64,000 nt of DNA from Pseudomonas helmanticensis (GTDB lineage Bacteria; Pseudomonadota; Gammaproteobacteria; Pseudomonadales; Pseudomonadaceae): assembly GCF_900182985.1 (NCBI RefSeq), contig NZ_FXUY01000001.1, forward strand, positions 1,674,001 to 1,738,000. The letters are read 5' to 3'. The notes beneath the pieces were generated by a model. That model saw nothing but the letters and a program-made list of their open reading frames with translations. It searched no databases and had not been told where the DNA came from. This document shows, piece after piece, positions 514-41,118 of this stretch. Each line of letters starts with the position of its first letter. The stretch's first letter is position 1. Position numbers and translations under genes: made by a program.

Positions 514-515
514 AC

Positions 516-1334: not shown

Positions 1335-1443
1335 CAGCCGCTGTTATCGGCTCAGCCGATTCAACCCTGCGATTTATCGATTTGTAGCGTTGTCGGCCGC
1401 CATCGAGTATGTGCCCACACGACAACAACAAGAAGGATCCACC

Positions 1444-2535: not shown

Positions 2536-2665
2536 CCTCGCCCGACACCTGAACAACCCAAGCTCAGCCAGCGGCGTAAACGCTGCGGTGATTTCCTGTC
2601 GCACCAAAAAAGAGTGCACCCGCCGACGACATCCGGCGGGAATCCACAACAATAAGGAAAAGATC

Positions 2666-3961: not shown

Positions 3962-3971
3962 CGGGGCTTGC

Positions 3972-4841: not shown

Positions 4842-4914
4842 TTCAATCCTGCCTCAAACTGCCTGCCTTTGATTTGAGGGACGGCCAACGCTTACCTGAA
4901 AACGGAGATTGACC

Positions 4915-15733: not shown

Positions 15734-16248
15734 GGAGTTCGAGTAGGCGGCCAGTGCTGGTCTCTGGCTTACAAGGTTTATCGGGCTTCCCACAGTACCG
15801 GACCAAATTGAAAAGGTACGGCCTCGGCTGCTTCACACGGCATAAGGGCTGGATCTCAGCGCGGAGATCTTTCTAACCGTGTACCCTTCGGAGCGCGCCC
15901 CACGCCCCCTTGCTATCCGATTGCGCATCAGTCTGCGTCTTCGCCTACACCTTTGAGCCTAGCAAAGGCTCGCTCGCCCAGACTGGCATTTTTAGATTGA
16001 TTTCGCCTTTGCCCGCCAAGTGAAGGAAACGAAACGCCTAACGCCCGTCGATCCCCCCGCCATGCCGTAACGGTTCAGCGATCTATACTGATTCAGTTCG
16101 ATACTTATTACGTCGACACCCGTGCGCCTGACGGTGCGCTCGTGCCTTTCGCCAACCAGATCAACCCGAGCCAATGAGTCGTAGCGCCAGTCATCGTACG
16201 GCGGACGATGCGTTAACGCTTTGTGGCTGCCGGGTCGTGGAGAAAATC
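15734..16248. other. 515-bp gap with no convincing gene
   Basis: No long or well-started frame is seen on either strand. The only promoter-like element noticed is TATACT at 16084-16089, about 160 bp before the repeat-protein start, without a good -35. The gap may hold the leader of that gene; nothing further can be supported. Confidence 0.4.
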
Positions 16249-16818
16249 ATGAAATACAGGCTTTTGTCAGGCGTGGTTCTGGCGGTTGCGGCTGCGGTTG
16301 TAGTGCCTGGGGCATGGGCGGCGCAGCCTCAGGCGGTGGCTTCTGATGGTTCTGATCATGTTGGTGCCGGTGCGGTGGCTTCTGACGGTTCTGATCATGT
16401 TGGTGCCGGTGCGGTGGCTTCTGACGGTTCCGATCATGTTGGTGCCGGTGCGGTGGCTTCTGACGGTTCCGATCATGTCGGTGCCGGTGCGGTGGCTTCT
16501 GACGGTTCAGATCATGTCGGCGCGGGTGCGGTGGCTTCTGACGGTTCCGATCATGTTGGTGCCGGTGCGGTGGCTTCTGACGGTTCCGATCATGTCGGTG
16601 CCGGCGCGGTGGCTTCTGATGGTTCTGATCATGTCGGCGCGGGTGCGGTGGCTTCTGACGGTTCCGATCATGTTGGTGCCGGTGCGGTGGCTGCCGATGG
16701 CGCTGATCGTACGGGCATCAATCGATTTGCCTATTCCCGTGTCGGTGTCGGCTCTGATCGGGTCGCTTCGGCGCTGATGACCGGCAGTTATTCCGACCAG
16801 TTCAACAGCCCTCAATAA
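16249..16818 (+). CDS. Secreted protein with nine identical 13-residue repeats
   Basis: A 189-residue protein starting MKYRLLSGVVLAV, with a Sec signal peptide (about residues 1-24, cut near AWA/AQ). Then come nine exact copies of AVASDGSDHVGAG, a tenth diverged copy (AVAADGADRTGIN) and a non-repeat tail of about 30 residues. The ATG at 16249 is chosen over an upstream in-frame codon (16174) because the signal peptide begins there and GGAG is at 16239-16242. Pseudomonas proteins with DGSD-type repeats are often labelled phage infection protein, without functional proof that I can cite. The repeats are acidic with regularly spaced Asp, so metal binding is possible. Function unknown. Confidence 0.8.
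   Translation: MKYRLLSGVVLAVAAAVVVPGAWAAQPQAVASDGSDHVGAGAVASDGSDHVGAGAVASDGSDHVGAGAVASDGSDHVGAGAVASDGSDHVGAGAVASDGSDHVGAGAVASDGSDHVGAGAVASDGSDHVGAGAVASDGSDHVGAGAVAADGADRTGINRFAYSRVGVGSDRVASALMTGSYSDQFNSPQ
16333..16722 (+). repeat. 39-bp coding tandem repeat, 9 copies plus 1 diverged
   Basis: Units start at 16333 and every 39 bp to 16684. All nine complete units encode the same 13 residues but differ at synonymous sites (GAT/GAC, TCT/TCC/TCA, GTT/GTC, GCC/GCG). Units 5-6 and 8-9 share a very similar pattern of variants, which points to duplication of a two-unit block. Confidence 0.95.
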
Positions 16819-22906: not shown

Positions 22907-24007
22907 TTATTTATCGGATTTGATGCTGGTCCAGACGCGGGTGCGTACGCGTTCGAGTTTCTGCGGCAATGGCTGGACGACGTAGAGGTTTTTCAGCGCT
23001 TCGGGAGTCGGTGTCAGGTTCGGGTTGTCGGTGATCTCTTTGTTGATCAGCGGGATCGAATCCTTGTTCGCATTCGGGTATCCGAGGAAGTCACTGATCG
23101 GCGCGATGACTTTTGGATCAAGCAGGGTGTTGAGGAATTCGTGGGCCTCTTCGACGTTCTTCGCGCTCTTCGGAATCGCGAAGGTGTCGAACCAGATCGG
23201 CGCGCCTTCCTTCGGCAAGCGCCAGTCGACGACCACACCATTTTTCGCCTCTTTGGCGCGGTTGCCGAACTGATAGAAACTGCCGGAGTAACCGATGGCC
23301 ACGCAGATGTCGCCATTGGCGATATCGGTCATGTATTTGGCCGAGTTGAAGTAGGTCACGTAAGGGCGAACCTTGAGCATCAACTCCTTGGCTTTTTCGT
23401 AATCGGCGGGGTTTTGGCTGTTTGGGTCGAGGCCGAGATAATGCAGGGCCAGCGGGAGGATTTCCGTCGGTGAATCGAGCATCGCTACACCGCAGGATTT
23501 GAGCTTTTCCATGTTCTGCGGCTTGAACACCAGATCCCAGCTATCCACCGGCGCGTTATCGCCCAATGCCGCCTTGACCTTGGCCGGGTTGAAGCCGATC
23601 AGCACGGTGCCGACCATGTAAGGCACGCCGTACTGGTTGCCCGGATCGTTCTTGCCCAGCAGTTTCAACAACTCCGGATCCTGGTGGCTCCAATTCGGCA
23701 GCTTGGACTTGTCGAGTTTCTGGAACACGCCGGCCTTGATCTGCGTTTCCAGGAACTGGTTCGACGGCACCACGAGGTCGTATCCAGAGTTGCCGGTCAG
23801 CAATTTGGCTTCGAGGGATTCGTTGGTGTCGAAGGTGTCCCAGGTCACTTTGATGCCGCTTTTCGCAGCGAAATCCTTGGGTACGGCCGGCAGGATGTAA
23901 TCCGCCCAGTTGTACACGCGCAGTTCGCGTTGCTCGGCCTGGACAGCGCTGGCCAGCAGCGTCAGCCCACACACGGTGGCGCCCAGAATGCGTTTCATCG
24001 TGACCAT
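22907..24007 (-). CDS. Polyamine-type ABC transporter substrate-binding protein (PotF-like)
   Basis: A 366-residue periplasmic binding protein with a signal peptide (MKRILGATVCGLTLLASAVQA) and the family opening RVYNWADYILP. The YDLVVPSNQFLE block and conserved acidic pocket regions follow. The ATG at 24007 has GGGGA seven bases upstream; an ATG three codons later is an alternative. It binds putrescine, spermidine or a related amine in the family. No ATPase or permease gene is adjacent, so it is an orphan that must share a membrane complex encoded elsewhere. Upstream lie a 120-bp REP pair and the NCS1 permease gene. Confidence 0.88.
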   Translation of the reverse strand: MVTMKRILGATVCGLTLLASAVQAEQRELRVYNWADYILPAVPKDFAAKSGIKVTWDTFDTNESLEAKLLTGNSGYDLVVPSNQFLETQIKAGVFQKLDKSKLPNWSHQDPELLKLLGKNDPGNQYGVPYMVGTVLIGFNPAKVKAALGDNAPVDSWDLVFKPQNMEKLKSCGVAMLDSPTEILPLALHYLGLDPNSQNPADYEKAKELMLKVRPYVTYFNSAKYMTDIANGDICVAIGYSGSFYQFGNRAKEAKNGVVVDWRLPKEGAPIWFDTFAIPKSAKNVEEAHEFLNTLLDPKVIAPISDFLGYPNANKDSIPLINKEITDNPNLTPTPEALKNLYVVQPLPQKLERVRTRVWTSIKSDK

Positions 24008-24366: not shown

Positions 24367-25779
24367 TCAGTCTGTGTACCCCAGTTTCGCCGCCCTGCTC
24401 TGCTGGACCTGGCCGCGTGTCGCCAGGCAGTAATACAGCGGAACGGTGACGACCAGACCCACCAGCCACGACAGATCCGCGCCGTCGACCAGATTGGCGT
24501 AAGGCCCGACATACAGCGACGTATTGGCGAACGGTAGCTGCACGATAATGCCGATGAAGTAGGCAATGATCGCGTGCAGATTGAAGCGCCCGTAAACCCC
24601 GCCGTCAGCCCGGAAGATCGAGGTGACGTCGTAGTTGCCACGCTTGATCAGGTAGAAGTCGATCAGGTTGATCGAGGCCCACGGCACCAGCACCAGCAAC
24701 AGCGCCAGAATCAAACCGATGAATTCGGAAATGAAGTCCGCCGAGGCGCCGAGCGCGACCACACAGCAGCCTGCCAGTACCACGCTCGACAACATCACGC
24801 GCACCTTGATGCTCGGCGTCCATTGGCTGGCGAACGTCTGGATCGAGGTGATGATCGACAGCACCGCACCATACAGATTCAACGCGTTGTGGCTGATGAT
24901 ATTGAGCAGAAACAACACCATCAGAATCGGCCCCAGCCATCCGGTGGACTGCTTGACCGCAACCATCGCTTCGGTGCCTTCCGGCGTCGCCAGCACCGCA
25001 ACAGCGCCAAAACTGAACGACAGAATCGTACCCAGCGTCGCGCCCAGATAGGTCGCCCAGAACGGCTTGGCGATGCCGATGTCGGCTGGCAGATAACGCG
25101 AATAGTCGGAGACGTACGGCGAGAAACTGATCTGCCAGATGATCCCCAGCGACACCGTCGCCAGCCAGCCGGACAGGTTGAAACTGCCACGGGTGAAGAA
25201 GTCCGCCGGCAAGTCATGGGCGAAGATGTAGATGAAACCGGCGAGCAACGCGCTGCCCATCACCCAGGTGCCAATGCGGTTCAGCGTGTGGATGAAGTTG
25301 TAGCCGATCACGCCGATGGCCGTAGCGGCCAGTGCGCCGATCAAAATACTCAGCGGCGCCGGCACCGACGGCGCAATGCCGACGATGGATTTGCCCGCGA
25401 GGACAATGTTGGAAATGAAGAAGCCGATGTAAATGATCGCCGCGAAAAACACGATCAACAGTGCGCCATAACGACCGAACTGACCGCGACTCTGGACCAT
25501 CTGCGGAATGCCCATGCGCGGGCCTTGTGCCGACGCCAGCGCAATCACTACGCCGCCGATCATGTGCCCCAGCGCAATCGCCAGCAGGCCCCAGAGCAGA
25601 TCGAGATGGAACACCTGAACCACCATGGCGCCGGTGACGATGGGCAGTGGCGCAATGTTGGTGCTGAACCAAAGGGTGAAAAGGTCGCGGGCCTTCCCGT
25701 GGCGTTCCGCGAGTGGGACGTAGTCGACCGTGTGATTCTCGATCAACGGATCTTGCCGGGACATCTGGGACATATGCAT
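24367..25779 (-). CDS. NCS1-family nucleobase/cation permease
   Basis: A 470-residue permease with about 12 membrane helices. The cytosine permease-like start SRQDPLIENHTVDYVPLAERHG is followed by the FTLWFSTNIAPLP helix-1 motif and later SPYVSDYSRYLP, both characteristic of NCS1. The family carries cytosine, purines, uracil, allantoin or related rings. The first ATG (25779) is used; in-frame ATGs at 25773 and 25764 are possible. It is divergent from a flavin reductase gene, and each has its own copy of a shared palindrome. The substrate is probably an N-heterocycle oxidised by the nearby flavin monooxygenase; this is inference. Confidence 0.87.
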   Translation of the reverse strand: MHMSQMSRQDPLIENHTVDYVPLAERHGKARDLFTLWFSTNIAPLPIVTGAMVVQVFHLDLLWGLLAIALGHMIGGVVIALASAQGPRMGIPQMVQSRGQFGRYGALLIVFFAAIIYIGFFISNIVLAGKSIVGIAPSVPAPLSILIGALAATAIGVIGYNFIHTLNRIGTWVMGSALLAGFIYIFAHDLPADFFTRGSFNLSGWLATVSLGIIWQISFSPYVSDYSRYLPADIGIAKPFWATYLGATLGTILSFSFGAVAVLATPEGTEAMVAVKQSTGWLGPILMVLFLLNIISHNALNLYGAVLSIITSIQTFASQWTPSIKVRVMLSSVVLAGCCVVALGASADFISEFIGLILALLLVLVPWASINLIDFYLIKRGNYDVTSIFRADGGVYGRFNLHAIIAYFIGIIVQLPFANTSLYVGPYANLVDGADLSWLVGLVVTVPLYYCLATRGQVQQSRAAKLGYTD

Positions 25780-25858
25780 GAACTCGAGTTTGTCTGTTCT
25801 TATCGTTGTATGAAGCCAAACCGGGGGGACTCTCTGGTCGCCCCTCAGATGCGAACCA

Positions 25859-25874
25859 TATTATGGTATTCCAA
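25859..25874. promoter_or_regulatory. Shared palindromic operator, copy 1 (NCS1 permease)
   Basis: TATTATGGTATTCCAA, about 80 bp upstream of the permease start. It differs from the copy at 28734 by one base. The core TGGTATNCCA resembles operators of FadR-type GntR repressors. Confidence 0.7.
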
Positions 25875-26031
25875 GCTTTGCACAAGACTGATCCGGCAAT
25901 TTGAGCGCTACCTGATCCGCTATCCTCGCTGATCACGCTCTCCTTTGACTAGGCAAAAGCCCCGTAAACATTGACTTTCCGACGAAAGCAGCACGTTTAT
26001 CGGTTCAACTGTAAATCCCTTGCAAAGAATG

Positions 26032-26047
26032 TATTACGGTATACCAT
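26032..26047. promoter_or_regulatory. Shared palindromic operator, copy 2 (flavin reductase)
   Basis: TATTACGGTATACCAT, 50 bp upstream of the flavin reductase start. It differs from the copy at 28734 at two positions. It probably overlaps the promoter. Confidence 0.7.
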
Positions 26048-26097
26048 CAGACCTACAAACACATAAAAACCGCGTCACAACACCCGAGGACCACCCA

Positions 26098-26583
26098 ATG
26101 ATCGATGCTGCCATCTATAAACAAGTCATGGGCTCGTTCCCGTCCGGCGTCACCGTGATCACCACGCTGGATGACGACGGCCAGATCGTCGGCCTGACCG
26201 CCAGCGCGTTCAGTTCGCTGTCGATGGACCCGGCGCTGGTGCTGTTCTGCCCCAACTACAGCTCCGATTCCTATCCAGTGCTGATCAAGAACAAGCGCTT
26301 TGCCATTCACGTTTTGTCCGGCGGACAGCAAAGCGAAGCCTATGCCTTCGCGCGCAAAGGCAAGGACAAGGCGCAGGGCATCGAGTGGACGTTGAGCGAG
26401 TTGGGCAACCCGATCCTGGCCAATGCGACGGCGGTGATCGAGTGCGAGTTGTGGCGCGAATACGAAGGGGGCGACCACGCGATCATGGTCGGCGCGGTGA
26501 AGAACCTGATCGTGCCTGAGCAGGTTGCCGGACCGCTGGTGTATTGCCACGGCAAGATGGGTGCGTTGCCTGCGGTGGCCTGA
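26098..26583 (+). CDS. Flavin reductase family protein (FMN reductase component)
   Basis: A 161-residue flavin reductase-like protein. It opens with FPSGVTVITTLDDDGQIVGLTASAFSSLS (FMN-phosphate and ring contacts of the HpaC/RutF family), then FAIHVLSGGQQ, and ends with VGAVKNLIVPE...LVYCHGKMGAL. It reduces flavin with NAD(P)H and passes it to a partner monooxygenase. The LLM-type monooxygenase at 28881, which has the same operator, is the obvious partner. The ATG at 26098 follows GAGGA at 26086-26090. It is divergent from the NCS1 permease. Confidence 0.88.
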   Translation: MIDAAIYKQVMGSFPSGVTVITTLDDDGQIVGLTASAFSSLSMDPALVLFCPNYSSDSYPVLIKNKRFAIHVLSGGQQSEAYAFARKGKDKAQGIEWTLSELGNPILANATAVIECELWREYEGGDHAIMVGAVKNLIVPEQVAGPLVYCHGKMGALPAVA

Positions 26584-26611
26584 TCCAGAACTCTAGATCA
26601 CGCACAAATCA

Positions 26612-26705
26612 ACTGTAGGAGTGAGCCTGCTCGCGATAGCGTTGTGTCAGTTAACTTAGATGTCGGCTGACATAACGCTATCGCGAGCAGGCTCACTCCT
26701 ACAGG
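26612..26705. repeat. Inverted REP pair (TGTAGGAGTGAGCCTGCTCG type)
   Basis: CTGTAGGAGTGAGCCTGCTC and its inverted partner ending CACTCCTACAGGGG lie between the convergent flavin reductase and chemoreceptor genes. Confidence 0.85.
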
Positions 26706-26731
26706 GGTTTTGTGGTGTCTGGGCTGGCGGA

Positions 26732-28678
26732 TCAGGTGCGGAACCGGCTTACCAGTTGATTCAATGTCTGTGACAACGCCGTCAGATTCTGCGCATCCTG
26801 CCGCGTCGAATCCGCCAGGCTCGCCACCAACTGCGCATCACCATGAATCTGGCTGATATGCCGATTGATGTCCTCGGCCACTTGATGCTGCTCCTCCGCT
26901 GCGGTGGCAATCTGCGTGTTCATGTCGCGGATCACGTCCACCGATTCGCGAATCAATTCAAAGCTCGCCCGCGCCTCATTGATCGACACCACAGTCTCCT
27001 GCGACACCTCAAGGCTCGCATGCATCTGCTTGCCCATCTGATGCGTGCGGCGCGCGAGGTTGCCGAGCAAGGCGTCGATCTCGCCGGTGGAATCCGCCGT
27101 GCGCTTGGCCAGCGCGCGCACTTCATCGGCGACTACGGCAAAACCACGGCCCTGCTCTCCCGCCCGCGCGGCTTCAATTGCCGCATTCAGCGCGAGCAGA
27201 TTGGTCTGCTCGGCAATCGAGCGGATGGTGCCGAGAATCGACTGGATGTCGGTGCTGTCCTGCTCCAGTTGCTGCATCGATTCGGCGCTGTGGCCGATCT
27301 CCTGACTCAAGCGCCCGACATTGCTCACCGCCGCATCGATCTGCTGCTGCCCGGTGTGCGCCTGACGCTGGCCGTTATCAGCCGAGTCCGCAGCCTGGCT
27401 GCACGAACGCGCAACTTCGTTGGAGGTGGCGACCATTTCATGAAACGCCGTCGAGACCATGTCCACCGCCTCGCGCTGCCGTGAGGCCACTTCCGCCATT
27501 TCCGCCGAGACTTGGGTGGCGCTGCCGGAGCTGCTGTGAATCTGCCCGGCCGCCTGACCGATGCGCTGAATCAACGTGCGAATCGCTTCAAGAAACTGAT
27601 TGAACCAGCCAGCCAATTGCGCGGTTTCATCCTGCCCGCGCACCTCCAGCCGCGCCGTCAGATCGCCCTCGCCCTGCGCAATCCCTTCAAGCCCACTGGC
27701 CACCCCGCGAATCGGCTTGACCATCAAGCCGGCAAACCACGCGCCCGCCATGGCGAACAGCAGCGCGCAAACGGCAGCGATGGCGCCGATGATCCAGGTC
27801 AAACGTGTGGCGCCGGCCATGACTTCACTGGCCCTGACCACACCGACAAAACGCCAGCCCAGCGCTTCCGACGGCCAGACCAGCGCCATGTACCGCTCGC
27901 CAGCAAGCTCCACTTCGACAAGACCTTTGCCAGCCTCGGCCAGTTGTTGGTAACCATCGCCCAGCGCGTCGAGTTTCTTGAAGTTATGCGACGGATCGCT
28001 CGGGTCGACCAGCACCGTGTTATTGGCTTCCATCAGCATCAGATAACCGCTGTCGCCGAGGCGGATCTGCTTGACCAGATCGGTCAGTTGCTTGAGCGAC
28101 ACATCGATATTCACCACCCCGGCGTTGCTGCCCAACTGATTGTTGAAACTGCGCACGGTGCTCACCAGCACCACGTCATCCGCCGCCCAGTAATAGGCAT
28201 CGGTGCGCAGGGTCTTGCCGGGATTGGCCATCGCAGTTTGGTACCAGGGCCGCGTACGCGGGTCGTAACTGGCCAGCTGCGGGTCGCCCGGCCAGAACAG
28301 ATAGCCGCCCTCCTGCGTCCCCAGCGAGAGATAGGTGTAAGCCGGGTGGGCCTTGGCCAGACCGGCGAATAGCGTGAACACTTGCTGATCCTGCGGCCCC
28401 AGCGGGATCTGCGCGGCATCACTGCTCAGATAGCGTTTAAGGCTGCCATCAGTCCCCTGCAATTGCGGATGCTCAGCCAGATACGCGACGTTCTGGCTGA
28501 TGCCTTCAAAGAACAGCTGCATGGCGTTCTCGACCTGACGCACCTCACGCCCGGTACTGTCGATGAAGTTGTCACGTGCCGCCTCGCGCACGTTGATAAT
28601 GATCAGCATCGCTACCAGCAGTACCGGCAGGCTGGCGATGGCCGCGAATGCCAAGGTCAATTTTTGTTTGATGTTCAT
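26732..28678 (-). CDS. Methyl-accepting chemotaxis protein with dCACHE sensor
   Basis: A 648-residue chemoreceptor. TM1 is at about residues 8-30, a periplasmic double-CACHE sensor at about 36-280, TM2 near 295-317, then HAMP and the cytoplasmic signalling domain with the tip region [21 protein letters not shown]. The sensor has Y138, R143, W145, Y146 and D192, matching most of the known dCACHE amino-acid motif. Thr148 stands where that motif needs Asp, so an amino acid is not the expected ligand. It carries the same operator as the permease, flavin reductase and monooxygenase, so it may guide cells to the substrate of that pathway. Confidence 0.9.
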
Positions 28679-28733
28679 CTACTGCGCCTTCCTTGTTCGA
28701 AGTGTCGGTCAGAAATATTTTGCGGATATTCCG

Positions 28734-28749
28734 TATTATGGTATACCAA
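28734..28749. promoter_or_regulatory. Shared palindromic operator, copy 3 (chemoreceptor and monooxygenase)
   Basis: TATTATGGTATACCAA, 55 bp upstream of the chemoreceptor start (minus) and 131 bp upstream of the monooxygenase start (plus). The core TGGTATACCA is a perfect palindrome. CATAAT on the minus strand could be a -10, so a bound repressor would block the chemoreceptor promoter. Confidence 0.72.
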
Positions 28750-28880
28750 TATTCAATCAACCGACCAGCCGTCTCGAAGGCGTGCTTGAATGGTGAGAAG
28801 ACTTGCGAGCGTTCAGCGCTCATGCCAGTGACACAGGCCCGCAAACGACCGGCCATCAACAAAAGATCCGAGGTAGCGTC

Positions 28881-29924
28881 ATGAAATTTTCCCTGTTCGT
28901 ACACATGGAACGCTGGGACGAAAGCGTCAGCCACCGCCAACTGTTCGAAGACCTGACCGAACTGACCCTGATGGCCGAGGCCGGCGGTTTCAGCACCGTG
29001 TGGATCGGCGAACACCACGCCATGGAATACACCATCTCGCCGAGCCCGATGCCGCTGCTGGCCTACCTCGCGGCGAAAACCACGACCATCCACCTCGGCG
29101 CCGGCACCATCATCGCGCCGTTCTGGCACCCGTTGCGGGTCGCCGGGGAATGCGCCCTGCTCGATGTGATCAGTAACGGTCGCATGGAAGTCGGCCTGGC
29201 CCGTGGCGCCTATCAAGTTGAGTTCGATCGCATGGCCGGCGGCATGCCCGCCTCATCCGGCGGCCAGGCCCTGCGCGAGATGGTTCCGGTGGTCCGCGCC
29301 CTGTGGCAAGGCGACTATGCCCACGACGGCGACATCTGGAAATTCCCCACTTCGACCAGCGTGCCGAAGCCGATTCAAAAACCGAATCCGCCAATGTGGA
29401 TCGCCGCCCGCGACCCGGACTCACACAACTTCGCCGTGGCCAACGGCTGCAACGTCATGGTCACGCCATTGATGAAGGGCGACGAAGAAGTCCTCGACCT
29501 GAAGAACAAATTCCAGACTGCCCTGGACAACAACCCGGACGTACCTCGCCCGCAACTGATGGTGCTGCGCCACACCCACGTGCACACCGCCGACGACCCG
29601 GACGGCTGGCAAGTCGGCGCGAAAGCGATCTCACGTTTCTACCGCACCTTCGATGCGTGGTTCGGCAACAAGGCAACGCCGGTCAACGGCTTCCTCGACC
29701 CAAGCCCGGAAGAGAAATTTGCCGGGCGTCCGGAGTTTGAACTGGAGAGTTTGCACAAGACGGCCATGATCGGCACGCCGGAGGAAATCATCCCGCGCAT
29801 CAAGTATTACCAGGAACTGGGCGTGGATGAGTTCAGCTTCTGGTGTGACAACAGCTTGCCGCATGCGGAGAAGAAGAAATCGCTGGAGTTGTTTATCAAG
29901 CATGTCGTGCCGGCGTTTAGGTAA
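28881..29924 (+). CDS. LLM-class (bacterial luciferase-like) flavin-dependent monooxygenase
   Basis: A 347-residue TIM-barrel oxidoreductase of the luciferase-like superfamily: N-terminus MKFSLFVHMERWD, then AEAGGFSTVWIGEHHAMEYTI and LLDVISNGRMEVGLARGAYQVEF, which carry family flavin-site residues. It uses reduced FMN and oxygen to oxidise a small organic substrate. The reductase partner is probably encoded at 26098. The ATG at 28881 follows CCGAGG at 28868-28873. It is divergent from the chemoreceptor and followed by a strong terminator. The substrate is not known; an N-heterocycle imported by the NCS1 permease fits the context. Confidence 0.88.
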   Translation: MKFSLFVHMERWDESVSHRQLFEDLTELTLMAEAGGFSTVWIGEHHAMEYTISPSPMPLLAYLAAKTTTIHLGAGTIIAPFWHPLRVAGECALLDVISNGRMEVGLARGAYQVEFDRMAGGMPASSGGQALREMVPVVRALWQGDYAHDGDIWKFPTSTSVPKPIQKPNPPMWIAARDPDSHNFAVANGCNVMVTPLMKGDEEVLDLKNKFQTALDNNPDVPRPQLMVLRHTHVHTADDPDGWQVGAKAISRFYRTFDAWFGNKATPVNGFLDPSPEEKFAGRPEFELESLHKTAMIGTPEEIIPRIKYYQELGVDEFSFWCDNSLPHAEKKKSLELFIKHVVPAFR

Positions 29925-31588: not shown

Positions 31589-32062
31589 CTACAGTTCATT
31601 GGCTGAGATATGCAATTCTGAGAATTTTTTACGAATATACTCAGTTAACCCAACCAAGTCTTCAAAGGCAATAGAGCCAAACTCAGGCTCATACTTGGCA
31701 AGATAGCTTCCAGAAGACTGCCCTAAAAATTGGGCTTTAGCCTCTACCTCCTTAATATATGCAGGCTCAATTACCCAATTCATGCCAAAGGATGCATAAC
31801 GCTCACAACCTGTCAGCACCCAAGAAATCAAGCCATTATACGAACCAATCACCTCATTCAAAACAGAGATAATATATTCATTTTCTTTTTCAAATCGAAA
31901 AGCTATATATGGAGGAAATCTCGAACGATCCTCTCTTTCAAAATGATCACCCATCCAGACCTCTGGATTACGTTGCCCATACTTTCTCCACTCAAGTGCA
32001 TTCAAGTCATGAAGAATATTAAGCAGCTCACCTTCCGAGTCTAAAACTCTAGTCACGCCCAT
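31589..32062 (-). CDS. Putative immunity protein for the CDI-like toxin
   Basis: A 157-residue cytoplasmic-type protein (starts MGVTRVLDSEGELLNILHDL) with no signal peptide and many acidic and aromatic residues. Its ATG overlaps the exoprotein stop by one base (TAATG), the usual coupling of a toxin with its immunity gene. GC is lower than in the large upstream gene. The family is not recognised by motif. The role, blocking the papain-like toxin tip inside the producer, follows from position. Confidence 0.75.
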   Translation of the reverse strand: MGVTRVLDSEGELLNILHDLNALEWRKYGQRNPEVWMGDHFEREDRSRFPPYIAFRFEKENEYIISVLNEVIGSYNGLISWVLTGCERYASFGMNWVIEPAYIKEVEAKAQFLGQSSGSYLAKYEPEFGSIAFEDLVGLTEYIRKKFSELHISANEL

Positions 32063-35000
32063 TACTGCAACCCCTTCAACTTATCAGAGATCGACACTCC
32101 GCCCGGGTTAATATTTTTAATATGCTGCTCCCAATCCCCTTTAGGAATAGGGTTGGACGATAGCCTTGGATCATAAACATACCGACCATCAGTATAGACC
32201 TGGTGATAAAATTGACCCGGCTCTTTAACTCCATTCTCATAAACATTTAAATCGCCAGCTCTCGCAGGGCGAACTTCAATGACCGTCCCTTTACCGCCAG
32301 AAGCATCAAACAACTTGCTTGCAATATCTGAACAGTCTGTCCTGGAACAACCCACCATATTTTTAATTTGCGGGCTCTCCATTGCATCAACAACAGACTT
32401 GCTCGGCGGAAACTCTGGGTTAACAGGACGGAATGGGCGATCCATTCCTGGAGGAATAAACTCGTCTACCTTTCCGGCAGCGCCACCAGTAGCTTTTGCA
32501 CCATCCGCAAAATAATCCGGAGGCAAATCACAAGGCCCAGTGTTGTGTACCCAGGTCTTGAGCTCGCCAACGTAGAACGTATGCCCCACATCGACCGTCA
32601 GATTGTATGTTTTGCCCTCGGGCAGGTACAGCTCAAGCGATTCGACTTCGGACGAGGTGTTTTCGGTGTCGCCATCAGCCAGTGACTGCAGCAGATCACC
32701 CGGTTCCAGATCTTTGACAGGAATGAAATCACGTTTGGCGGGTACATAGAAGGGGTGGCTCGGCGTAACCAGCAGGGTTTCGCCTTCCGCTGCGCCAGCG
32801 CCACGAACACTTTTGAGCTTGAGGCGGTAGATCGGCTGATCCGAACGCTGATGCGTTGCCAGAATGGCAGCAGCGAACGGCTTGCCCCCTTTCTCAGGCT
32901 TGCTCCAGACAACATCTCCCACCTTGAGCGACTCAATAACGCGGTCGCCTTGCGGTGTAGAAACTTTCGTACCCGCAGCAAAGCAGCAAGGCCCCTTCGT
33001 TACTGGGGTTCCCGTTGTGCCTTTTGCACTAACCCACTTCCCACCAACCCACTCAACGGCTCTGTCCCCAATATAGGCGGTGACAAGCCCGGTGGCCGCA
33101 TCGAAAGCCATACCGCCCAACTCTTGGGCGGACGCGGTCGCTACTTTATCAAACTGTTTTTCCAGCGTATGCGACGGGATCGGACTGGTAATCCAGTCTT
33201 TGAACCCCACCGCTAACCCACCTATGCCCCCAGCGATTGCACCAATCGTATCTAAAGGTGATGACACTGCCTTCCAGATCGATTCCGCTGCCTTAACTGC
33301 CTCACCTGGCAGAGCAACAGCATTTTTACCAACGCCAATCCCCGCTTCTCTGGCCAGAAACCCCGGATCCATCGACGGAGGGTAAACAGTTGTAAGCTCC
33401 CTTGGGTCAATGCCGGAAAAATAACTCGCAATGGCTGCATCGTATTGCTCGCGCGTCCACCCTTCTTGTAGTGCTTGTAGCTGAGTCTTACGCCCAAACT
33501 CCTCCATTTCACGCTGTCTTTCGCCATCCAATGCGGCTACCGCCCGGGTGATATTGTCCCGGCACGTTTGACCTCCATCCCCGGTACCACAAGCTGCTCG
33601 AGCTTTATCTGCCGCTACAACCTCTCTATGTAACAGCCAGTTGTACTGGGTGGCGTTCTTCGCAATATTTGCCCCCTGCTGAAAATCCCCATCCACGGCC
33701 GAGGCGGCAATGAGCCCGGTTAGCTGCGACAGCATCAAGTGCAACTCGTCATTGCCGCCAGCGAAGTCGATGAGCACATTCATCGCGGCTTCGTTCAGCC
33801 CGGCCGCAGCAGCGCCCGTAGCAAAATCCCCGCCCATGACTTGGGAGATCAAACCACCCATCAACGCATGCGCTACTACCTTTTCAACACTGCCTTCCGG
33901 AAACTTGATTGTGTTGTCGCCAACAAAATTAAATCCGGTCGCCATGGCGACACTGCTCGCCTCCCCCAGCAATGCAGCACCAAAGTTGTCACCAAAGCTA
34001 CCGCCGCCGATGGTCGTGGAGATGCCACTGGAAATGACAGCACGTCCTGTAGTGCGGATCGCGACGTCGGTAAAGTTGCTGCTGGTTAAGATGCTCGCCG
34101 TTTTGCTGTTTCCAGCCGCGAACCAGTTGGCATCCGCGTAATCGAGCATGCCCGCCGTGAATCCGGCGATGGCTGCACCCTTCAGGCTGTCGGCACTGAA
34201 TGTTTCTTTGAAGGCAGCACCCAGATTGCCTTTGTTACTGATGGTGCTGGTTACAGCCGTCGTCGCCAGACTGGTAGCAACGACACCGGTGAAGCCTCCG
34301 CTGACCAGAGCCAACCCACCCGGCCCCATTACGAACGACATCATGATCGCGATAGCGATTTGTGCCGCCGGACCAACCCCCGAATTCTCATACTTGAACG
34401 ACTCGTGAATCTCCTTCACGCGCCGCCAGTCAACATCCCCCCGCGCCTCGGCATCCTTCAACCACGCCAGTTGCGGATCGGCCTTGACCATCGTGTCGAT
34501 TGTCTGGCTCACGGACTCCTGATTGACATCCTTGATATCAATCTTCAGCCCATCGACCGCTTTGATGATGATGTTGCCCTTGGCAATCATCTGCGTCTGG
34601 CGCAGGGTTTCGTCGGTGTTGCCGCGACCTTTCGCCGAGACCCACGCGGCGTTGTTGTTGGTTTTGGTATGGCTCTCATCATGCAGATCCTTCACCCCTT
34701 CGAAGGTGATGGAGCCGCCGCTGTCGAGGATGATGTCCTTGCCGCTGTCGAGCTTGGCCACCTGGTAGCGCTGGTCGCCTTTGCTGACCAGTGAGAGGTT
34801 GCCGCCGGTCTTGATTTCGCTGCCGACGTAGGTGGTGTCGGTGACTTCGTCGCGTTGCAGTTTCAGGTTGCCGAAACCACCCTTCTCCTTCATGTCGTAA
34901 AGGGTGTAATCCTTGTTCTGCGCGGCCAGCAGGTTCAGGTCGTTGCCCGCGTAGACGTAAGCTTCGTTGCCCGCGCTGATCTTGCTCGCGACCAGTGTGG

Positions 35001-38000
35001 TGTCGCGGCCGGAGTTGGTTTTTACGTCGCCGCCAGCGATGAATTCAGCGGCCTTCTGGACGGTGTGGTTATCTTCTTCGTGGACGCGTTTCTTGCCGTC
35101 CTTGCTGTGGGTTTCGACGTTGTTTTCGTCGCCGGCCGAGGACATGAAGATGTCGCGCTTGGCGTCGGCGGTGAGGTTGCCTTTGGCTTCGGCGGTGCTG
35201 GCGACGACGTTGATGTCGCGACCGGCATCAAGCTTCAGGTTGCCGCCGGTTTTCACTGTCGAGGACAGATTGTCCACGGTGGTGGTAATGGTTGAGCGAT
35301 GGCCGCCATCGAACGATTCGTGCAGTTCGTTTTCTTCGCGCGTCGCCAACAGGTTGATGTCGCGGGACGCGCTCAGGCTGGCGTCGCCGCCGCTGCTGAT
35401 GGATGACGAGTTGACCAGATCGTTGCCCGATTTGATGGTAAGGCTGTCCCGTGCGCTGATGTTGCCGCCGTCATCGACGAGGGTGCGCATGCCGTTGCCG
35501 TCGCGCACGGCGATGGCGGTGCGATCGTTGACGATGTCGCCTTTGAGGCTGGTCAGTTCGACTTGGTTGCCACGAATTTCGCCGGCCAGTGCGTTGCGAA
35601 TGCTGTCGGTCGCCATGAGTTTGATGCGTTCATTGGCTTCGACCAGGCCGCCCTGATAGAGGCTGCCCTTCACATCGACAGAGACGTCTTTGCTCGCACT
35701 CAGAGTGCCGACGTTGACCAGGTCATTACCGGCGATCAGCTCCAGGTCGCGGCCCTGAATCAGGCTGCCGCCGCGCACGTTGCGCGATTCGGCCTGGGCC
35801 AGATACAGCACCGGCACCAGCACTTTCTGGCCGTCGACGATGCGTTCTTCCATCCACACGATGTCGTGGGTCAGTGCGGCGACCTGTTCCGAGGTCAGGC
35901 TGACGCCGACCGACAGGTTCAGTTCGTTTTTGCTGGCGAGCGCGTTATCCATCAGATAACGGAATTGCTCGTAGTCATTCTCCAGGCCGCCGGCAAGGAA
36001 ACGCTGACCGGTCTGGGCCATGACGGCGTCGCTGATCAGGCGCGATTCATAGCGGCCATCACCGAGGCGGCGCGCGGTTTCATCGGCGCTGAAATTGAGT
36101 TTGCCGAGCAGGTAGTCGGAACTCATGAACGGCGCGGTCTGAGTCAGCTCCGGGTTGGTCTCGATCAGGTAGCGGCTCTGCGGGTTGCTGCTCTGCACGA
36201 ACATGCCGTACGGGCCTTTCGGCAGACGGAACGTCGAGGACGCCGTTGGATCGACCGCCGCAAACGGCACGCCTTTGAAGTCCACGGGTACGAAGCTGAT
36301 CTGCTTCACGCCATCGGCATCGATGTGTTCGATACGGGTAACGGATTTCGGCGCCTGCGCGCTGGCGTCGGTGCTGTGCTTACCGAGGTTGATGTTGATG
36401 CCACCGACCGCATCGGTCTGGTCGCTGGACAAGGCGCCGGTCAGTTGACCATAGGTGTTGTCGTACAGCGTGCCGTTCTGGATGCTGTTGGCGACGTCGA
36501 GTTTGACCTTGCCGCCGGCCTGCATCACGGCCGAGTAGACGGTGTTGCCGTTTTCATTCCAGGTGGTGACATCGCTGGTCGGCAAGAATCGGGAGTCGCT
36601 GGAGCGACTGGCCAGTTCGTCGAACCGCGCCTGATCGAAATTACCCGCCGCCGTCGCCGCGTTGAAAGCCGGGATATCGATGAATTCCATCTGATCCCAC
36701 AGGCTGTTGGCGATGTGCTCCGGTGTACCGATTTTCAGCACACGTTGTCCCGAGCGCGAAGCGGCGCCCTGGTTCAACAGGCTGTCGGCAGTGACTGTCA
36801 GATCACCGTTGGCGGCCAGCAGGCTGTAGCGGTTTTCCACCCGATTGGCGTGGATATTGAGGTTCTTCCCGGCAACGAAGCGTGCCGCCCGCGAATCCTT
36901 GAGAACCTGATCGTTGAAGTCGGTAATGATGGTGATGTAGCCGCGTTTCCAACCATCGCCGCCCCCGCAATGCTGAGCGCACACCCAGCTGAGGCTCCCG
37001 GACGACTGCCCCGAGGTCAGCTCGAATTCGGCCTTGGCGTTTTCCACCGAGACCGCATTGATGTCGATGTCGCCCTCGCCTTCAACGGTGCCCGACAGGT
37101 TACTGAACACCGCAGCGCGACCACCACCGACGGCGTCGAAGCTCAGGTTGCCGCGACTGTAGATGTCGCCATAGAAGTTGTTCAGGCTGTTGCCGTGCAG
37201 CTTCATCGTGCCGCCGCTGAACAGCAGCGTATCGGCGTCGTTGTAGATGCCATTGGCGGCGGTGAATTCGAGGTTGCCTTGGGCACCGAGGGTGCCGTTA
37301 TTGTTGATCCGCGCCGCCGTCACCGTGAGGTTCTGGTTGGCGATCAGACGGCCGAGGTTGTCCAGCGTGCCGCGCAGGGTCATGACGGTGTCGCCACCGC
37401 TGACCAGTCGACCGTCCTGTTGAATCACGTCGTTGGCGTTGATCGTGAGTTTCTGCTGCGCCGAAACTTTACCGCTGTTGAGCAGATTGCCGCCCAGGTT
37501 CAGGGTCAGGTCACCGTCGCTCGCCAATTGCCCGGCGTTGTTCAGGTTGGCGACATTGAGGTTCAGCGTCGAAGCACTGGCGATGCGGTCGCCGGCGTTG
37601 AGGCTCAGATCCTGCGCGCTGGTGTAGGTCAGGCCGCCGTTGAGTTGCCAGGTGCCGACGCCGTTGACCGAGCCGACATCCCAAACGCCTTTGCCCAGAC
37701 CCGTGAGGCTGCCTTGCGTGCCGGTCAGATTAGTCAGGTCCAGATCGAACAAGCCCTGCGCCGCATGGCGCACGTTGCCGCTGAGGTTATTCAGTTGCGC
37801 GCCGGACAGCACCAAATCCTGGCTGCCGATTTCGATTGCACCGCTTTGGTTGTTGAGGTTGCCGGTCAGTTTGATTTGACTGGAGGCGCCCCCCAGTGCG
37901 CGGACTTGGCCGCCAGCGCTGTTATCCAGGCCGCTGGCAACCAGCTTGAGGCTGGTGGCCGATTCGATCAGGCCGCCCTGATTGAGAATCTGCCCGACCG

Positions 38001-41000
38001 CTTCGAGGCCCAGTTGATTGCCACTGATCTCGCCGCCCGTGTTATCCAGGCTGGTGCCGCTGAAGATCACCTGATCCTTGCCGAACAGTTTGCCGGCGCG
38101 GTTGGTCAGGCGCGTCACGGTCAGTGTCAGGTCATCGATCAGACTGGAGATCAAACCGGCCTTACCGTTGACTGCACTGTTATCGAGGTCGGCGCTGGTG
38201 ATCTCCAGCGAGTCGGCTTGCAGCGTTCCCCCTTGGTTTTGCAGGCTGCCAGTACCGAGGACCAGTTCGGCATGACTGCCGTTGGCGAGAATCACGCCTT
38301 GCTGATTGAGCAGGGTTTTACCGGTGATTTTAAGGCCGTCGCTGCCAGCGACAATCTGCCCGGCATCGTTGTTGTTGATCGCGGCGCTGGTGATGTCCAG
38401 ACGCTTGCCGCGCAGGGTGCCGCCACGGTTGTCCAGCGAAGTGAGCTGATTGAGCAGCAGACGCTGATCGGCGGCATCGACCACACCGGTCACGTTGCTG
38501 AAGACTCCGGCAATGTTGAGGACAACATCACCACCGTTGCCAACGATACCGCCCTTGTCGTTGTTGCTCAGTTGCGTGGCGTTGATGTCGATGGTTTTGC
38601 CGAGCAGGACACCGGCGCTGTTATCGACGACATCGCTGTCGATCTGCAACTGCCCTTCGCTCTGAATCCGGCCCTTGTGGTTAAGCAGTTGCGATTGCCC
38701 CGGCGCGGTTTGCTTGAGGATCAATCGCGCACCATCGGCACCCGCCGCCAACAAGCCGCTATCACTGTTATCGAGGCTCGCGACGTGCAGGTCCAGACCG
38801 TCGGCGATCATGCGCCCGCCACGGTTGTCGATGTGGCCGTCCTTAGCCACCATCAACAATTGTTTTGCGGCAACGACACCGCCACGGTTGTCGAGCGATC
38901 CGGCCTGAATGTCGACGTCAGCCTGACTCGATTGCAGGCGACCCAAAGCGTTGTTCAGGTGCTGCTCAACCACCAGCGTGAGCTTGCCGGTTGCGGCGCT
39001 GACGGTGCCGTCGTTGTTGCCCGAGAGATTGCGCAGGTTGGCATCGACCACGCCGCCGAGCAGTTTGCCGCCAGCGTTTTGGAAATCGCGCGCGGTCAGG
39101 TTCAGACGATCATTGCCTTGAATCAGGCCTTGGCTGTTGTCGAGGTCTGCGCTGGTGACCGCGCTGTCATCGGACGAAATCGTGCCTTGCGTGTTGTCGA
39201 GTGTGTCGCGGCTGCTGACTTCAAGGGTTTTGCCGATCAGGTTGGCGTTTCGGTTATCGATGCCTTTCGCCGCCACCGTCAGGCGATCCGAGGCCTGCAC
39301 TTTGCCGTCGTGGTTATCCAGATCCTGGGTAAGCGTCAGTTCGGCAGTGCCGTTTTCGGCACTGACAACACCTTTGCCGCTGTTATCGAGGCGCGTCGCC
39401 GTGACCTTGATTTTGTCAGCGGCCAGCGTGCCGCCCTGATTGAGTAACTCTCCACCAGACACTGCCAGCGTGGTTTTCGCCTGGATCTTGCCTTTGCCAT
39501 TGTCCAGACGTTCACGGGCAACAACCTTGGCATCATTCTGGCTGGCACCGATCAGGCCACCACTGTTATTGAGTTGCCGGGCGTCGATGTCGAGTCGTCC
39601 GGCAATGATTTTGCCGTCGGCGTTTTGCAGCTCACCTGCGTTGAGCTGGAGGCTGCCGCCAGCGATTTCGATCCGGCCTTGACGGTTGTCCAGACTGTCG
39701 ACCGAAAGTGTCGCAGCCTGACCATCGGCAAAGCGGATCAGCCCGTTGAGATTGACCATCGCCGGAGCGCTGAGCGCCAGGCGCGTTTCACCATAAATGC
39801 GGGCGTTGAGCCCCTGGTTGACCAGGCGAGCCGCGCTCAGATTAACGTTTTGTGCTTGAACGATGCCGTTCTGGTTGTCGAACCCGGCGGCCACCGCCGC
39901 GCTCAGCGTACGGCTGGCTAAAATGCTGCCAGTGTTGCTCACCGCAGCACTGTTGATGGCCAAATCACCGCTGGCATTGCGACTGTTGTCAGCGTTTACC
40001 CCGGCCTCGATCACGCCGTTGTTGGTCAGCTTGCCAGCGCTGCTCAGGCTGACGCTGTCACGGGCGGCCAGGCTCTGGCGGTTGATCAGCTCTTCGGCGG
40101 TCTGCACGGCCAGTTGCGTGCCGGCGTACACCGGCCCTTGGGCATCGAGACTTTGCGCTTTGACGGTGACGGCATTGCTGGCGGTGGCTTTGGCCATGCG
40201 CAACTGACCGTTGACGTCGATCTGGATATCGCCAGCGCTGGCCGCCAGGTCGCCCGCCAGCTTCACACCGACGCCCTGCTCCGTGCCCACCAGTTTGATC
40301 GCGCCGGCATACATGCCGCCCAGCGCCGAGGAGTCGATGGCCAGTTGCGGTTTGGCGCTGCCATCATCGGCACGCGCGGTGGCGTTGAGCGTGTCGGCGT
40401 TGACGTCGTTGCGACCGGTGGTGATGTTGAGGTTCTTGGCGTGGATCTGCGCGTTGATCTGCGCACTGCGGGTGATGATTTCAAAGCTGTCGACGCTGCT
40501 CGCATCGAGGCCGACGCCGTCGATGGAGATGCTGCCCTGATCGACCTGAAAGTGATCCAGACGACCATTGTCGAGCACCGGTTTACCGGTGGTCAGCGTG
40601 ACGCGCGGCGTGTTGATGAAACCGCAGCCGTTGCAACTGATGCCGTAAGGGTTGGCGACGATGACACGCGCCGACTGCCCCGCGACTTCGGTGTAACCGC
40701 GCAACTGACTTGGGCTGCCGCCGTTGACTTCATTGAGGATGGTTTGCGCCGCTGCACCACGCAGATTCTGGTTGCCGAGGATGATCCCGCCCAGCTGCGT
40801 CAGCTGCGTGCGTGCGGTGGCGTTATTGAGGATGACGCCCTGCGCGTCGACGTTGTAATCGTGAAACTGGTTATGCGACAGCCCGCTGCCATTGGGCGCG
40901 GCGATGTTGACGATCGGCACGCCATTGCCCGCGTTATCAAGGCTGGTGCCCGGCGCATTGACGACGATGCCATCGGCCTGTGCCCACATCGGTTGCCAAA

Positions 41001-41118
41001 ACATGACGTTGGCCAGCAGGAACGCGAGGCCGCGTTTAGGCATGCCCCAGAAGCGTTCGCGCGGTTTTACGGCAGCAGAGGGTTGGCCGGCCATGAAGGT
41101 CAGGTGGCGAATGTCCAT
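32062..41118 (-). CDS. CdiA-like two-partner-secreted exoprotein with Hint domain and papain-like toxin tip
   Basis: A 3018-residue exoprotein. An extended signal peptide ends near residue 48 (MWAQA/DG). The TPS/hemagglutination domain (about 49-175) contains NPYGISCNGCGFIN at 156-169. A long filament of LDN-type beta-helical repeats follows to about residue 1400, then FHA-type repeats rich in SGGDASL-like turns. Near residues 2490-2493 the pretoxin border reads TQYN instead of VENN. A Hint (intein-like) domain spans 2711-2860: CC at its start, TPSHPFYV, DVGHTFYV and terminal VHNT. The tip (about 2863-3018) has Cys2929 in TDCSDIA, His2972 in FYHQVY and Asp2983 in YVYDPR, a papain-fold/glutamine-deamidase-like triad. 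It is secreted by the partner encoded upstream. Confidence 0.88.
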   Translation of the reverse strand: MDIRHLTFMAGQPSAAVKPRERFWGMPKRGLAFLLANVMFWQPMWAQADGIVVNAPGTSLDNAGNGVPIVNIAAPNGSGLSHNQFHDYNVDAQGVILNNATARTQLTQLGGIILGNQNLRGAAAQTILNEVNGGSPSQLRGYTEVAGQSARVIVANPYGISCNGCGFINTPRVTLTTGKPVLDNGRLDHFQVDQGSISIDGVGLDASSVDSFEIITRSAQINAQIHAKNLNITTGRNDVNADTLNATARADDGSAKPQLAIDSSALGGMYAGAIKLVGTEQGVGVKLAGDLAASAGDIQIDVNGQLRMAKATASNAVTVKAQSLDAQGPVYAGTQLAVQTAEELINRQSLAARDSVSLSSAGKLTNNGVIEAGVNADNSRNASGDLAINSAAVSNTGSILASRTLSAAVAAGFDNQNGIVQAQNVNLSAARLVNQGLNARIYGETRLALSAPAMVNLNGLIRFADGQAATLSVDSLDNRQGRIEIAGGSLQLNAGELQNADGKIIAGRLDIDARQLNNSGGLIGASQNDAKVVARERLDNGKGKIQAKTTLAVSGGELLNQGGTLAADKIKVTATRLDNSGKGVVSAENGTAELTLTQDLDNHDGKVQASDRLTVAAKGIDNRNANLIGKTLEVSSRDTLDNTQGTISSDDSAVTSADLDNSQGLIQGNDRLNLTARDFQNAGGKLLGGVVDANLRNLSGNNDGTVSAATGKLTLVVEQHLNNALGRLQSSQADVDIQAGSLDNRGGVVAAKQLLMVAKDGHIDNRGGRMIADGLDLHVASLDNSDSGLLAAGADGARLILKQTAPGQSQLLNHKGRIQSEGQLQIDSDVVDNSAGVLLGKTIDINATQLSNNDKGGIVGNGGDVVLNIAGVFSNVTGVVDAADQRLLLNQLTSLDNRGGTLRGKRLDITSAAINNNDAGQIVAGSDGLKITGKTLLNQQGVILANGSHAELVLGTGSLQNQGGTLQADSLEITSADLDNSAVNGKAGLISSLIDDLTLTVTRLTNRAGKLFGKDQVIFSGTSLDNTGGEISGNQLGLEAVGQILNQGGLIESATSLKLVASGLDNSAGGQVRALGGASSQIKLTGNLNNQSGAIEIGSQDLVLSGAQLNNLSGNVRHAAQGLFDLDLTNLTGTQGSLTGLGKGVWDVGSVNGVGTWQLNGGLTYTSAQDLSLNAGDRIASASTLNLNVANLNNAGQLASDGDLTLNLGGNLLNSGKVSAQQKLTINANDVIQQDGRLVSGGDTVMTLRGTLDNLGRLIANQNLTVTAARINNNGTLGAQGNLEFTAANGIYNDADTLLFSGGTMKLHGNSLNNFYGDIYSRGNLSFDAVGGGRAAVFSNLSGTVEGEGDIDINAVSVENAKAEFELTSGQSSGSLSWVCAQHCGGGDGWKRGYITIITDFNDQVLKDSRAARFVAGKNLNIHANRVENRYSLLAANGDLTVTADSLLNQGAASRSGQRVLKIGTPEHIANSLWDQMEFIDIPAFNAATAAGNFDQARFDELASRSSDSRFLPTSDVTTWNENGNTVYSAVMQAGGKVKLDVANSIQNGTLYDNTYGQLTGALSSDQTDAVGGININLGKHSTDASAQAPKSVTRIEHIDADGVKQISFVPVDFKGVPFAAVDPTASSTFRLPKGPYGMFVQSSNPQSRYLIETNPELTQTAPFMSSDYLLGKLNFSADETARRLGDGRYESRLISDAVMAQTGQRFLAGGLENDYEQFRYLMDNALASKNELNLSVGVSLTSEQVAALTHDIVWMEERIVDGQKVLVPVLYLAQAESRNVRGGSLIQGRDLELIAGNDLVNVGTLSASKDVSVDVKGSLYQGGLVEANERIKLMATDSIRNALAGEIRGNQVELTSLKGDIVNDRTAIAVRDGNGMRTLVDDGGNISARDSLTIKSGNDLVNSSSISSGGDASLSASRDINLLATREENELHESFDGGHRSTITTTVDNLSSTVKTGGNLKLDAGRDINVVASTAEAKGNLTADAKRDIFMSSAGDENNVETHSKDGKKRVHEEDNHTVQKAAEFIAGGDVKTNSGRDTTLVASKISAGNEAYVYAGNDLNLLAAQNKDYTLYDMKEKGGFGNLKLQRDEVTDTTYVGSEIKTGGNLSLVSKGDQRYQVAKLDSGKDIILDSGGSITFEGVKDLHDESHTKTNNNAAWVSAKGRGNTDETLRQTQMIAKGNIIIKAVDGLKIDIKDVNQESVSQTIDTMVKADPQLAWLKDAEARGDVDWRRVKEIHESFKYENSGVGPAAQIAIAIMMSFVMGPGGLALVSGGFTGVVATSLATTAVTSTISNKGNLGAAFKETFSADSLKGAAIAGFTAGMLDYADANWFAAGNSKTASILTSSNFTDVAIRTTGRAVISSGISTTIGGGSFGDNFGAALLGEASSVAMATGFNFVGDNTIKFPEGSVEKVVAHALMGGLISQVMGGDFATGAAAAGLNEAAMNVLIDFAGGNDELHLMLSQLTGLIAASAVDGDFQQGANIAKNATQYNWLLHREVVAADKARAACGTGDGGQTCRDNITRAVAALDGERQREMEEFGRKTQLQALQEGWTREQYDAAIASYFSGIDPRELTTVYPPSMDPGFLAREAGIGVGKNAVALPGEAVKAAESIWKAVSSPLDTIGAIAGGIGGLAVGFKDWITSPIPSHTLEKQFDKVATASAQELGGMAFDAATGLVTAYIGDRAVEWVGGKWVSAKGTTGTPVTKGPCCFAAGTKVSTPQGDRVIESLKVGDVVWSKPEKGGKPFAAAILATHQRSDQPIYRLKLKSVRGAGAAEGETLLVTPSHPFYVPAKRDFIPVKDLEPGDLLQSLADGDTENTSSEVESLELYLPEGKTYNLTVDVGHTFYVGELKTWVHNTGPCDLPPDYFADGAKATGGAAGKVDEFIPPGMDRPFRPVNPEFPPSKSVVDAMESPQIKNMVGCSRTDCSDIASKLFDASGGKGTVIEVRPARAGDLNVYENGVKEPGQFYHQVYTDGRYVYDPRLSSNPIPKGDWEQHIKNINPGGVSISDKLKGLQ

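Follow-up and report, generated by a model that had tools for sequence, protein, structure and literature searches.

A conserved Pseudomonas regulon of probable tgn type and its sister oxygenase, flavin-synthesis gene and chemoreceptor

Perchat and colleagues are said to have described, in 2018 in PNAS, the tgn cluster of Acinetobacter baylyi ADP1 for degradation of trigonelline (N-methylnicotinate), in which a two-component flavin oxygenase reportedly cleaves the ring, oxidation gives an acid and hydrolysis releases methylamine, formate, CO2 and succinate semialdehyde. Trigonelline is also a growth substrate of Sinorhizobium meliloti, the wild type growing on 10 mM of it and a delta-pSymA strain failing to do so (excerpt of PMC4207669). 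Here we analyse a stretch of 64,000 nucleotides from Pseudomonas helmanticensis (contig NZ_FXUY01000001.1, positions 1,674,001–1,738,000; "the window" below), in which an NCS1-type permease, a short flavin reductase, a chemoreceptor and an LLM flavin-dependent monooxygenase are preceded by copies of one palindromic operator. The window probably holds part of a tgn-type regulon for the catabolism of trigonelline or a very close N-methylpyridinium carboxylate, and the gene set fits the ADP1 pathway as reported. The regulon is conserved in Pseudomonas and of a known type; it differs in its sister oxygenase, its flavin-synthesis gene and its chemoreceptor.

An initial annotation of the window had picked out three near-identical 16-mers, at 25859, 26032 and 28734, and all three are present as described (Table 1). 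The window has no other exact match to TATTAYGGTATWCCAW, and none appeared when it was shuffled 100 times with dinucleotides preserved; at up to three mismatches to the site pattern there are five matches (shuffle mean 0.24), the two extra ones being the opposite strands of two of the three known sites. Copies 1 and 2 both lie in the NCS1–reductase intergenic region, about 80 bp upstream of the permease gene and 50 bp upstream of the reductase gene respectively, and copy 3 is 55 bp ahead of the chemoreceptor gene on one side and 131 bp ahead of LLM on the other. Pfam supports the gene identities given at the outset (Transp_cyt_pur; dCache_1 with HAMP and MCPsignal; Bac_luciferase).

Scanning the whole genome (6.53 Mb, two contigs) yields six exact sites for a rough random-sequence expectation of 0.02. 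The three outside the window (C1:1658145, 1664004 and 1665360) lie 9–16 kb before its start, on a stretch designated L111, and at least half of the regulon is found beyond the window. All six copies stand at regulon genes, as expected of the single shared operator that had been proposed. It had also been predicted that the regulator would be a FadR-type GntR protein encoded outside the window, and a genome search for further members had been suggested; the search returned the three additional sites and, within the operator-bearing AA_synth operon, a gene of exactly this type, which places the regulator in the regulon itself. RibBA joins DHBP_synthase and GTP_cyclohydro2 domains and is one of two DHBP synthase genes in the genome; upstream of its site, on the other strand, lies a small gene that by appearance resembles the DUF1330 gene annotated in Burkholderia multivorans. 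When up to three mismatches are allowed, the genome has 47 matches to the pattern and 27 to its reverse; weak matches are thus mostly background. Two sites with two mismatches lie away from the cluster (C1:4521499 and 5049756), one, judging from the translations, within a tandem array of small genes for lipoprotein-like products and the other beside argC/erpA-like genes; because these neighbours are unrelated, we do not count the sites towards a wider regulon. The exact motif, by comparison, is absent from unrelated promoters in this genome.

The annotation had called for gene set and motif to be compared across the genus, and in 199 Pseudomonas genomes the site tracks the oxygenase and the regulator. 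The LLM gene occurs in 112, the GntR gene in 113 and an exact TATTAYGGTATWCCA in 114; every LLM genome (112/112) has both site and GntR, and the site is found in 2 of the 87 genomes without LLM (Fisher's exact test for LLM and site, 7e-55, relatedness ignored). Genome G300 has GntR and the site with no LLM found, and G318, an assembly of 650 contigs, has five sites with LLM and GntR unmatched at the limits used. The reversed-pattern control has no match in any of the 199 genomes.

Conservation was followed at 80 named loci, the top 80 among at least 585 places encoding a relative. Permease and reductase are both present in 73 of them, and all 73 intergenic regions keep both operator cores (TATTATGGTATTCC on the NCS1 side, GGTATACCATCA on the reductase side, the latter as an exact TATTACGGTATACCA in 52), so the sites are retained in orthologous loci. 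Cores are 173 bp apart in 94 of 106 pairs (the 80 named loci plus L136–L194, with some genomes counted repeatedly). The reductase-side site sits in the best conserved intergenic block, although its core served as the alignment anchor and owes its own score to that construction; just upstream a CTTGCAA is conserved, which might be a -35 element. Where the chemoreceptor adjoins LLM, an exact site always lies upstream of the oxygenase gene (19/19 loci); where it does not, this holds for 27 of 61. At 34 of the 80, LLM lacks both an adjoining chemoreceptor and its own operator copy, and there it probably follows the reductase within one operon. The two halves of the regulon stand side by side in some loci (for example L084, L095 and L107), and genomes G258 and G262 each carry regulon genes in three places up to about 1.25 Mb apart; even so, all of their exact sites (5/5 and 4/4) precede regulon genes.

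Diverged copies of the operator occur beyond Pseudomonas. We scanned clusters of other genera for matches of at least 15/20 to TATTATGGTATACCATAATA (Markov controls averaged 0–0.4 per locus in five simulations). Acinetobacter baumannii has a 19/20 match between GntR and AA_synth and a weaker one (16/20) ahead of a second aldehyde dehydrogenase; a match also stands between GntR and AA_synth in Leisingera (18/20) and in Rhizobium TH2 (17/20); S. meliloti has 17/20 before AA_synth and 16/20 before GntR; and B. multivorans has three of 16/20, before AA_synth and before a reductase. In another family (genome G131) an 18/20 match lies just before LLM. The operator is conserved in three proteobacterial classes, and five other genera have clusters with the same gene set. 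A helix region, GVSR(T/S)..RE..R.LE.EGLV, is common to the GntR proteins of Pseudomonas, S. meliloti, Acinetobacter, Leisingera, Burkholderia and Rhizobium TH2; that of Arthrobacter is more diverged. No match at this threshold was found in the short stretches L115 and L117, nor in four loci with a third group of LLM (L244–L247), where no GntR gene is listed within the stretch.

These observations suggest a mechanism whose steps and their order we infer from sequence. The FadR-type GntR, encoded about 37–40 kb upstream of the window's sites, would bind TATTATGGTATACCATAATA-like palindromes at six places and repress the adjoining genes until the substrate or a metabolite, held in its FCD domain, lifted repression. 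The NCS1 permease and the PotD-like ABC transporter would then import the compound, LLM and flavin reductase would open the ring with extra flavin drawn from RibBA, and the aldehyde dehydrogenase (ALDH) and the alpha/beta hydrolase would carry the product towards succinate semialdehyde. The chemoreceptor would be produced at the same time as the pathway, in line with the joint control of import, chemoreceptor and flavin-dependent ring oxygenase that was initially envisaged.

As to the substrate, the window LLM is 49–50% identical over its full length to Acinetobacter TgnA-type enzymes. RefSeq names P0241 flavin-dependent trigonelline monooxygenase oxygenase component, and the LLM of A. baumannii shares 94% identity with that protein; JGI names three relatives of the window LLM trigonelline monooxygenase (P0046, 84%; P0047, 83%; P0093, 79%). 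The S. meliloti cluster lies on pSymA beside nifB (strain R28), with equivalent genes in strain 1021, whose pSymA record has a single LLM place at E 1e-5. In its genes, its kind of regulator and its operator the regulon agrees with the trigonelline clusters of Acinetobacter and Sinorhizobium, so the substrate is likely to be an N-methylpyridinium carboxylate; the first description of the regulon as uncharacterised is not supported, and neither is the early hint of a nucleobase. Several results pull the other way. The window LLM falls on a branch separate from TgnA at only about 50% identity, and the remaining JGI names among the 120 listed LLM relatives are SsuD-like. Locus L104 has no NCS1 match and no site before reductase and LLM; Arthrobacter (L118), with an LLM 79% identical, has no operator match of at least 15/20. 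No succinate-semialdehyde dehydrogenase gene is seen in the L111 and window clusters, the rest of the genome not having been searched for one; the Arthrobacter and S. meliloti clusters do include it.

The sister LLM subfamily of Pseudomonas and actinobacteria could accordingly act on another N-heterocycle that is also the inducer, such as homarine (N-methylpicolinate), N-methylnicotinamide or another pyridinium betaine. In our tree (midpoint-rooted, long branches flagged) the TgnA clade and the Pseudomonas/actinobacterial clade, about 50% identical, are each supported at 100/99 with a third group outside them, and the occurrence of that third group in related gene sets, with other regulators and mostly other transporters, implies that the family may have several substrates. 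We nevertheless consider another substrate unlikely: the Pseudomonas regulon shares its kind of regulator, its operator and its NCS1 and PotD-like transporters with the Acinetobacter, Burkholderia and Sinorhizobium clusters, which favours a common inducer and hence trigonelline. Moreover, the 199 Pseudomonas genomes yielded no LLM of the TgnA clade (best match 53%); coexistence of the two types, conceivable if each had its own compound, is thus not seen there. A more elaborate version, in which the sister LLM opens a pyridinium ring other than trigonelline, the linked receptors form a dedicated sensor clade derived from PscC, and one GntR couples chemotaxis, uptake, flavin supply and plant-betaine catabolism, seems to us rather improbable. 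Doubts about the switch itself carry less weight. That the sites are true operators at which GntR activates, or to which another, unlinked regulator binds, is very unlikely: no sigma-70-like promoter that the operator might overlap reached the scanner threshold in the two intergenic regions scanned, but GntR accompanies LLM in all 112 genomes and the site in one more, it adjoins an operator-bearing AA_synth promoter in five other genera, and most FadR-type regulators of catabolic genes repress. We regard it as extremely improbable that the 16-mers have no regulator in common and merely repeat by chance or descend from one ancestral promoter element. The 80 named loci do come from close relatives, and bases outside the site (CTTGCAA) are conserved too; against this, the core is palindromic, the sites are tightly confined to genomes with GntR and LLM, they are retained at scattered genes and recur at corresponding promoters in other classes, and the reversed pattern draws a blank throughout the genus sample.

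Third-group-like LLMs (40–42% identity) occur in 4 of the 199 Pseudomonas genomes, two of which also carry the window type. The plasmid clusters L244–L247 combine the third LLM group with AA_synth, hydrolase and ALDH, with a flavin reductase in three of the four and with other regulators; they possibly serve other pyridinium compounds. The Arthrobacter plasmid cluster (L118, 2342–13068) includes riboflavin kinase, NUDIX, a tautomerase and a reductase fused to a SnoaL-like domain, so that flavin-supply genes again adjoin the oxygenase.

The chemoreceptor adjoins LLM in 19 of the 80 named loci and, in the genus sample, in no fewer than 19 of the 112 genomes with LLM; a second genus of the family (G094) shows the same arrangement. 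Over the sensor domain the window protein shares 61% identity with the solved structure 6mni, which we take to be that of PscC. The window protein and 6mni are identical in the YDPR.RPWY and NIDVSL stretch, where we assume the amino-acid-type motif positions of dCache_1 to lie, and that motif is intact. PscC of P. syringae binds gamma-aminobutyric acid (GABA) and L-proline, as reported in an extract of PMC9452764. The 17 LLM-linked copies, including that of the window, have 59–64% identity to 6mni compared with 65–73% for 13 receptors encoded elsewhere, with 11 diagnostic positions; this genome has no other close homologue (next best 34%), and the window receptor may be an orthologue or a paralogue of PscC. 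The ligand may be GABA, L-proline, trigonelline or another betaine. The preserved amino-acid-type motif speaks against an amine-type receptor (dCache_1AM, McpX-like). McpX of S. meliloti is tabulated as a trigonelline sensor in PMC8269324, which provides a precedent for trigonelline chemotaxis, and a passage of PMC10104139 records amine-type dCache domains that were assayed with trigonelline and did not bind it. One LLM-linked copy (G413:C1:4179260-4180831) has an internal stop; that genome may have lost the receptor while its pathway genes remain.

Table 1. Operator sites and genes of the regulon in the window and in L111, the stretch of the same genome ahead of it
Feature	Position	Strand	Remarks
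NCS1-type permease, probable substrate importer	24367..25779	-	Pfam Transp_cyt_pur 7.5e-41
Operator copy 1 (NCS1 side), TATTATGGTATTCCAA	25859-25874	.	exact match
Operator copy 2 (flavin reductase side), TATTACGGTATACCAT	26032-26047	.	exact match
Short flavin reductase, 161 amino acids, TgnB-like	26098..26583	+	best with HsaB/FerA-type models, below cut-offs
dCache_1 chemoreceptor, PscC family	26732..28678	-	Pfam dCache_1 + HAMP + MCPsignal
Operator copy 3, TATTATGGTATACCAA	28734-28749	.	between divergent chemoreceptor and LLM; exact match
LLM flavin-dependent monooxygenase, sister subfamily of TgnA	28881..29924	+	Bac_luciferase 6e-55
Operator site	L111:6145		precedes AA_synth operon
AA_synth	L111:6201		Pfam AA_synth 7.1e-71
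Alpha/beta hydrolase	L111:6823		
Aldehyde dehydrogenase (ALDH)	L111:7653		one such gene in L111
Second flavin reductase	L111:9147-9632		second copy
CMD	L111:9762		family match
FadR-type GntR regulator	L111:10209		N-terminal GntR helix-turn-helix 1.3e-17; C-terminal FCD 7.9e-24
NUDIX	L111:10975		
Operator site	L111:12004		precedes RibBA (12051)
Operator site	L111:13360	reverse	precedes PotD-like binding protein (13480) and its ABC transporter

Some neighbouring features were recorded alongside. A PotF-like gene (22907–24004) adjoins the NCS1 gene in many loci, has no operator and was excluded from the regulon. Directly 3' of both flavin reductase genes lie long inverted repeats (window ~26614–26703, L111 ~9651–9739; TGTAGGAGTGAGCCTGCTCGCGATAGCG... 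and CTGTAGGAGCTGCCGAAGGCTGCGATC...), which we take to be REP-like. Elsewhere in the window, a small open reading frame (16174–16818, +) begins like a signal peptide and continues as about nine near-identical tandem copies of ASDGSDHVGAGAV, and one of 3018 amino acids (32062–41118, -) encodes a protein resembling filamentous-haemagglutinin-type secreted exoproteins. Positions 1–5742 hold ABC transporter genes, an iron-type alcohol dehydrogenase, an MFS transporter, a LysR regulator and a HAD hydrolase, a group that resembles a phosphonate-use cluster.

If correct, our reading of a trigonelline-type regulon gives a widespread Pseudomonas gene set (LLM in over half of the genomes sampled) a defined plant-betaine pathway with its regulator and operator, and the operator becomes a sequence handle for finding the equivalent switch in other Proteobacteria. 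It also makes two ideas testable: a coupling of trigonelline catabolism with chemotaxis in these bacteria, and the presence of a co-regulated flavin-synthesis gene within a two-component flavin oxygenase pathway. Among the matches listed from open-licence literature on trigonelline or N-methylnicotinate there is no account of the regulon, the operator or the chemoreceptor link.

Compared with known systems, the regulon resembles the Rut pyrimidine pathway in its set of LLM oxygenase, flavin reductase and alpha/beta hydrolase and differs from it in permease class and regulator. The view that this is not a Rut pathway holds: the reductases score 67.6 and 65.5 (second copy) of the 254.75 bits set for RutF and the hydrolase 93.2 of the 238.5 for RutD, far below the cut-offs, and RutA is not among the 25 families listed (of 30 found) for the window LLM. 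Relatives of the regulon genes in the S. meliloti pSymA cluster comprise GntR (42%), AA_synth (58%), hydrolase (34%), LLM (51%), ALDH (56%), the transporter binding protein (SBP, 60%) and the remaining ABC transporter genes; this cluster differs in having long-reductase, NIPSNAP and succinate-semialdehyde dehydrogenase genes and no NCS1 or CMD match. The tgn system of Acinetobacter, compared through the A. baumannii cluster (L134), supplies relatives of GntR (39%), AA_synth (57%), hydrolase (35%), reductase (36%), LLM (50%), ALDH (55%), NCS1 (55%; 51% in B. multivorans) and CMD (76%). Here the Pseudomonas LLM belongs to the sister subfamily, and its probable partner, the short flavin reductase (161 amino acids compared with 310), matches the N-terminal part of the long enzyme and lacks the C-terminal half. 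In S. meliloti, Leisingera and B. multivorans (L119, L120 and L121) that half of the long TgnB-type reductases is 23–28% identical to the Pseudomonas NUDIX protein by tblastn, a hint that the two correspond; Pfam gave only Flavin_Reduct in the two long reductases scanned (S. meliloti and A. baumannii). The 25-kb A. baumannii stretch yielded no RibBA, NUDIX, ABC transporter or chemoreceptor; it has a second aldehyde dehydrogenase, of the succinate-semialdehyde type, not seen in the Pseudomonas cluster. The chemoreceptor is like PscC in its sensor domain and differs in carrying the operator of this regulon. The pathway is not new in kind; the useful part is the assignment of regulator to operator and the link to chemotaxis.

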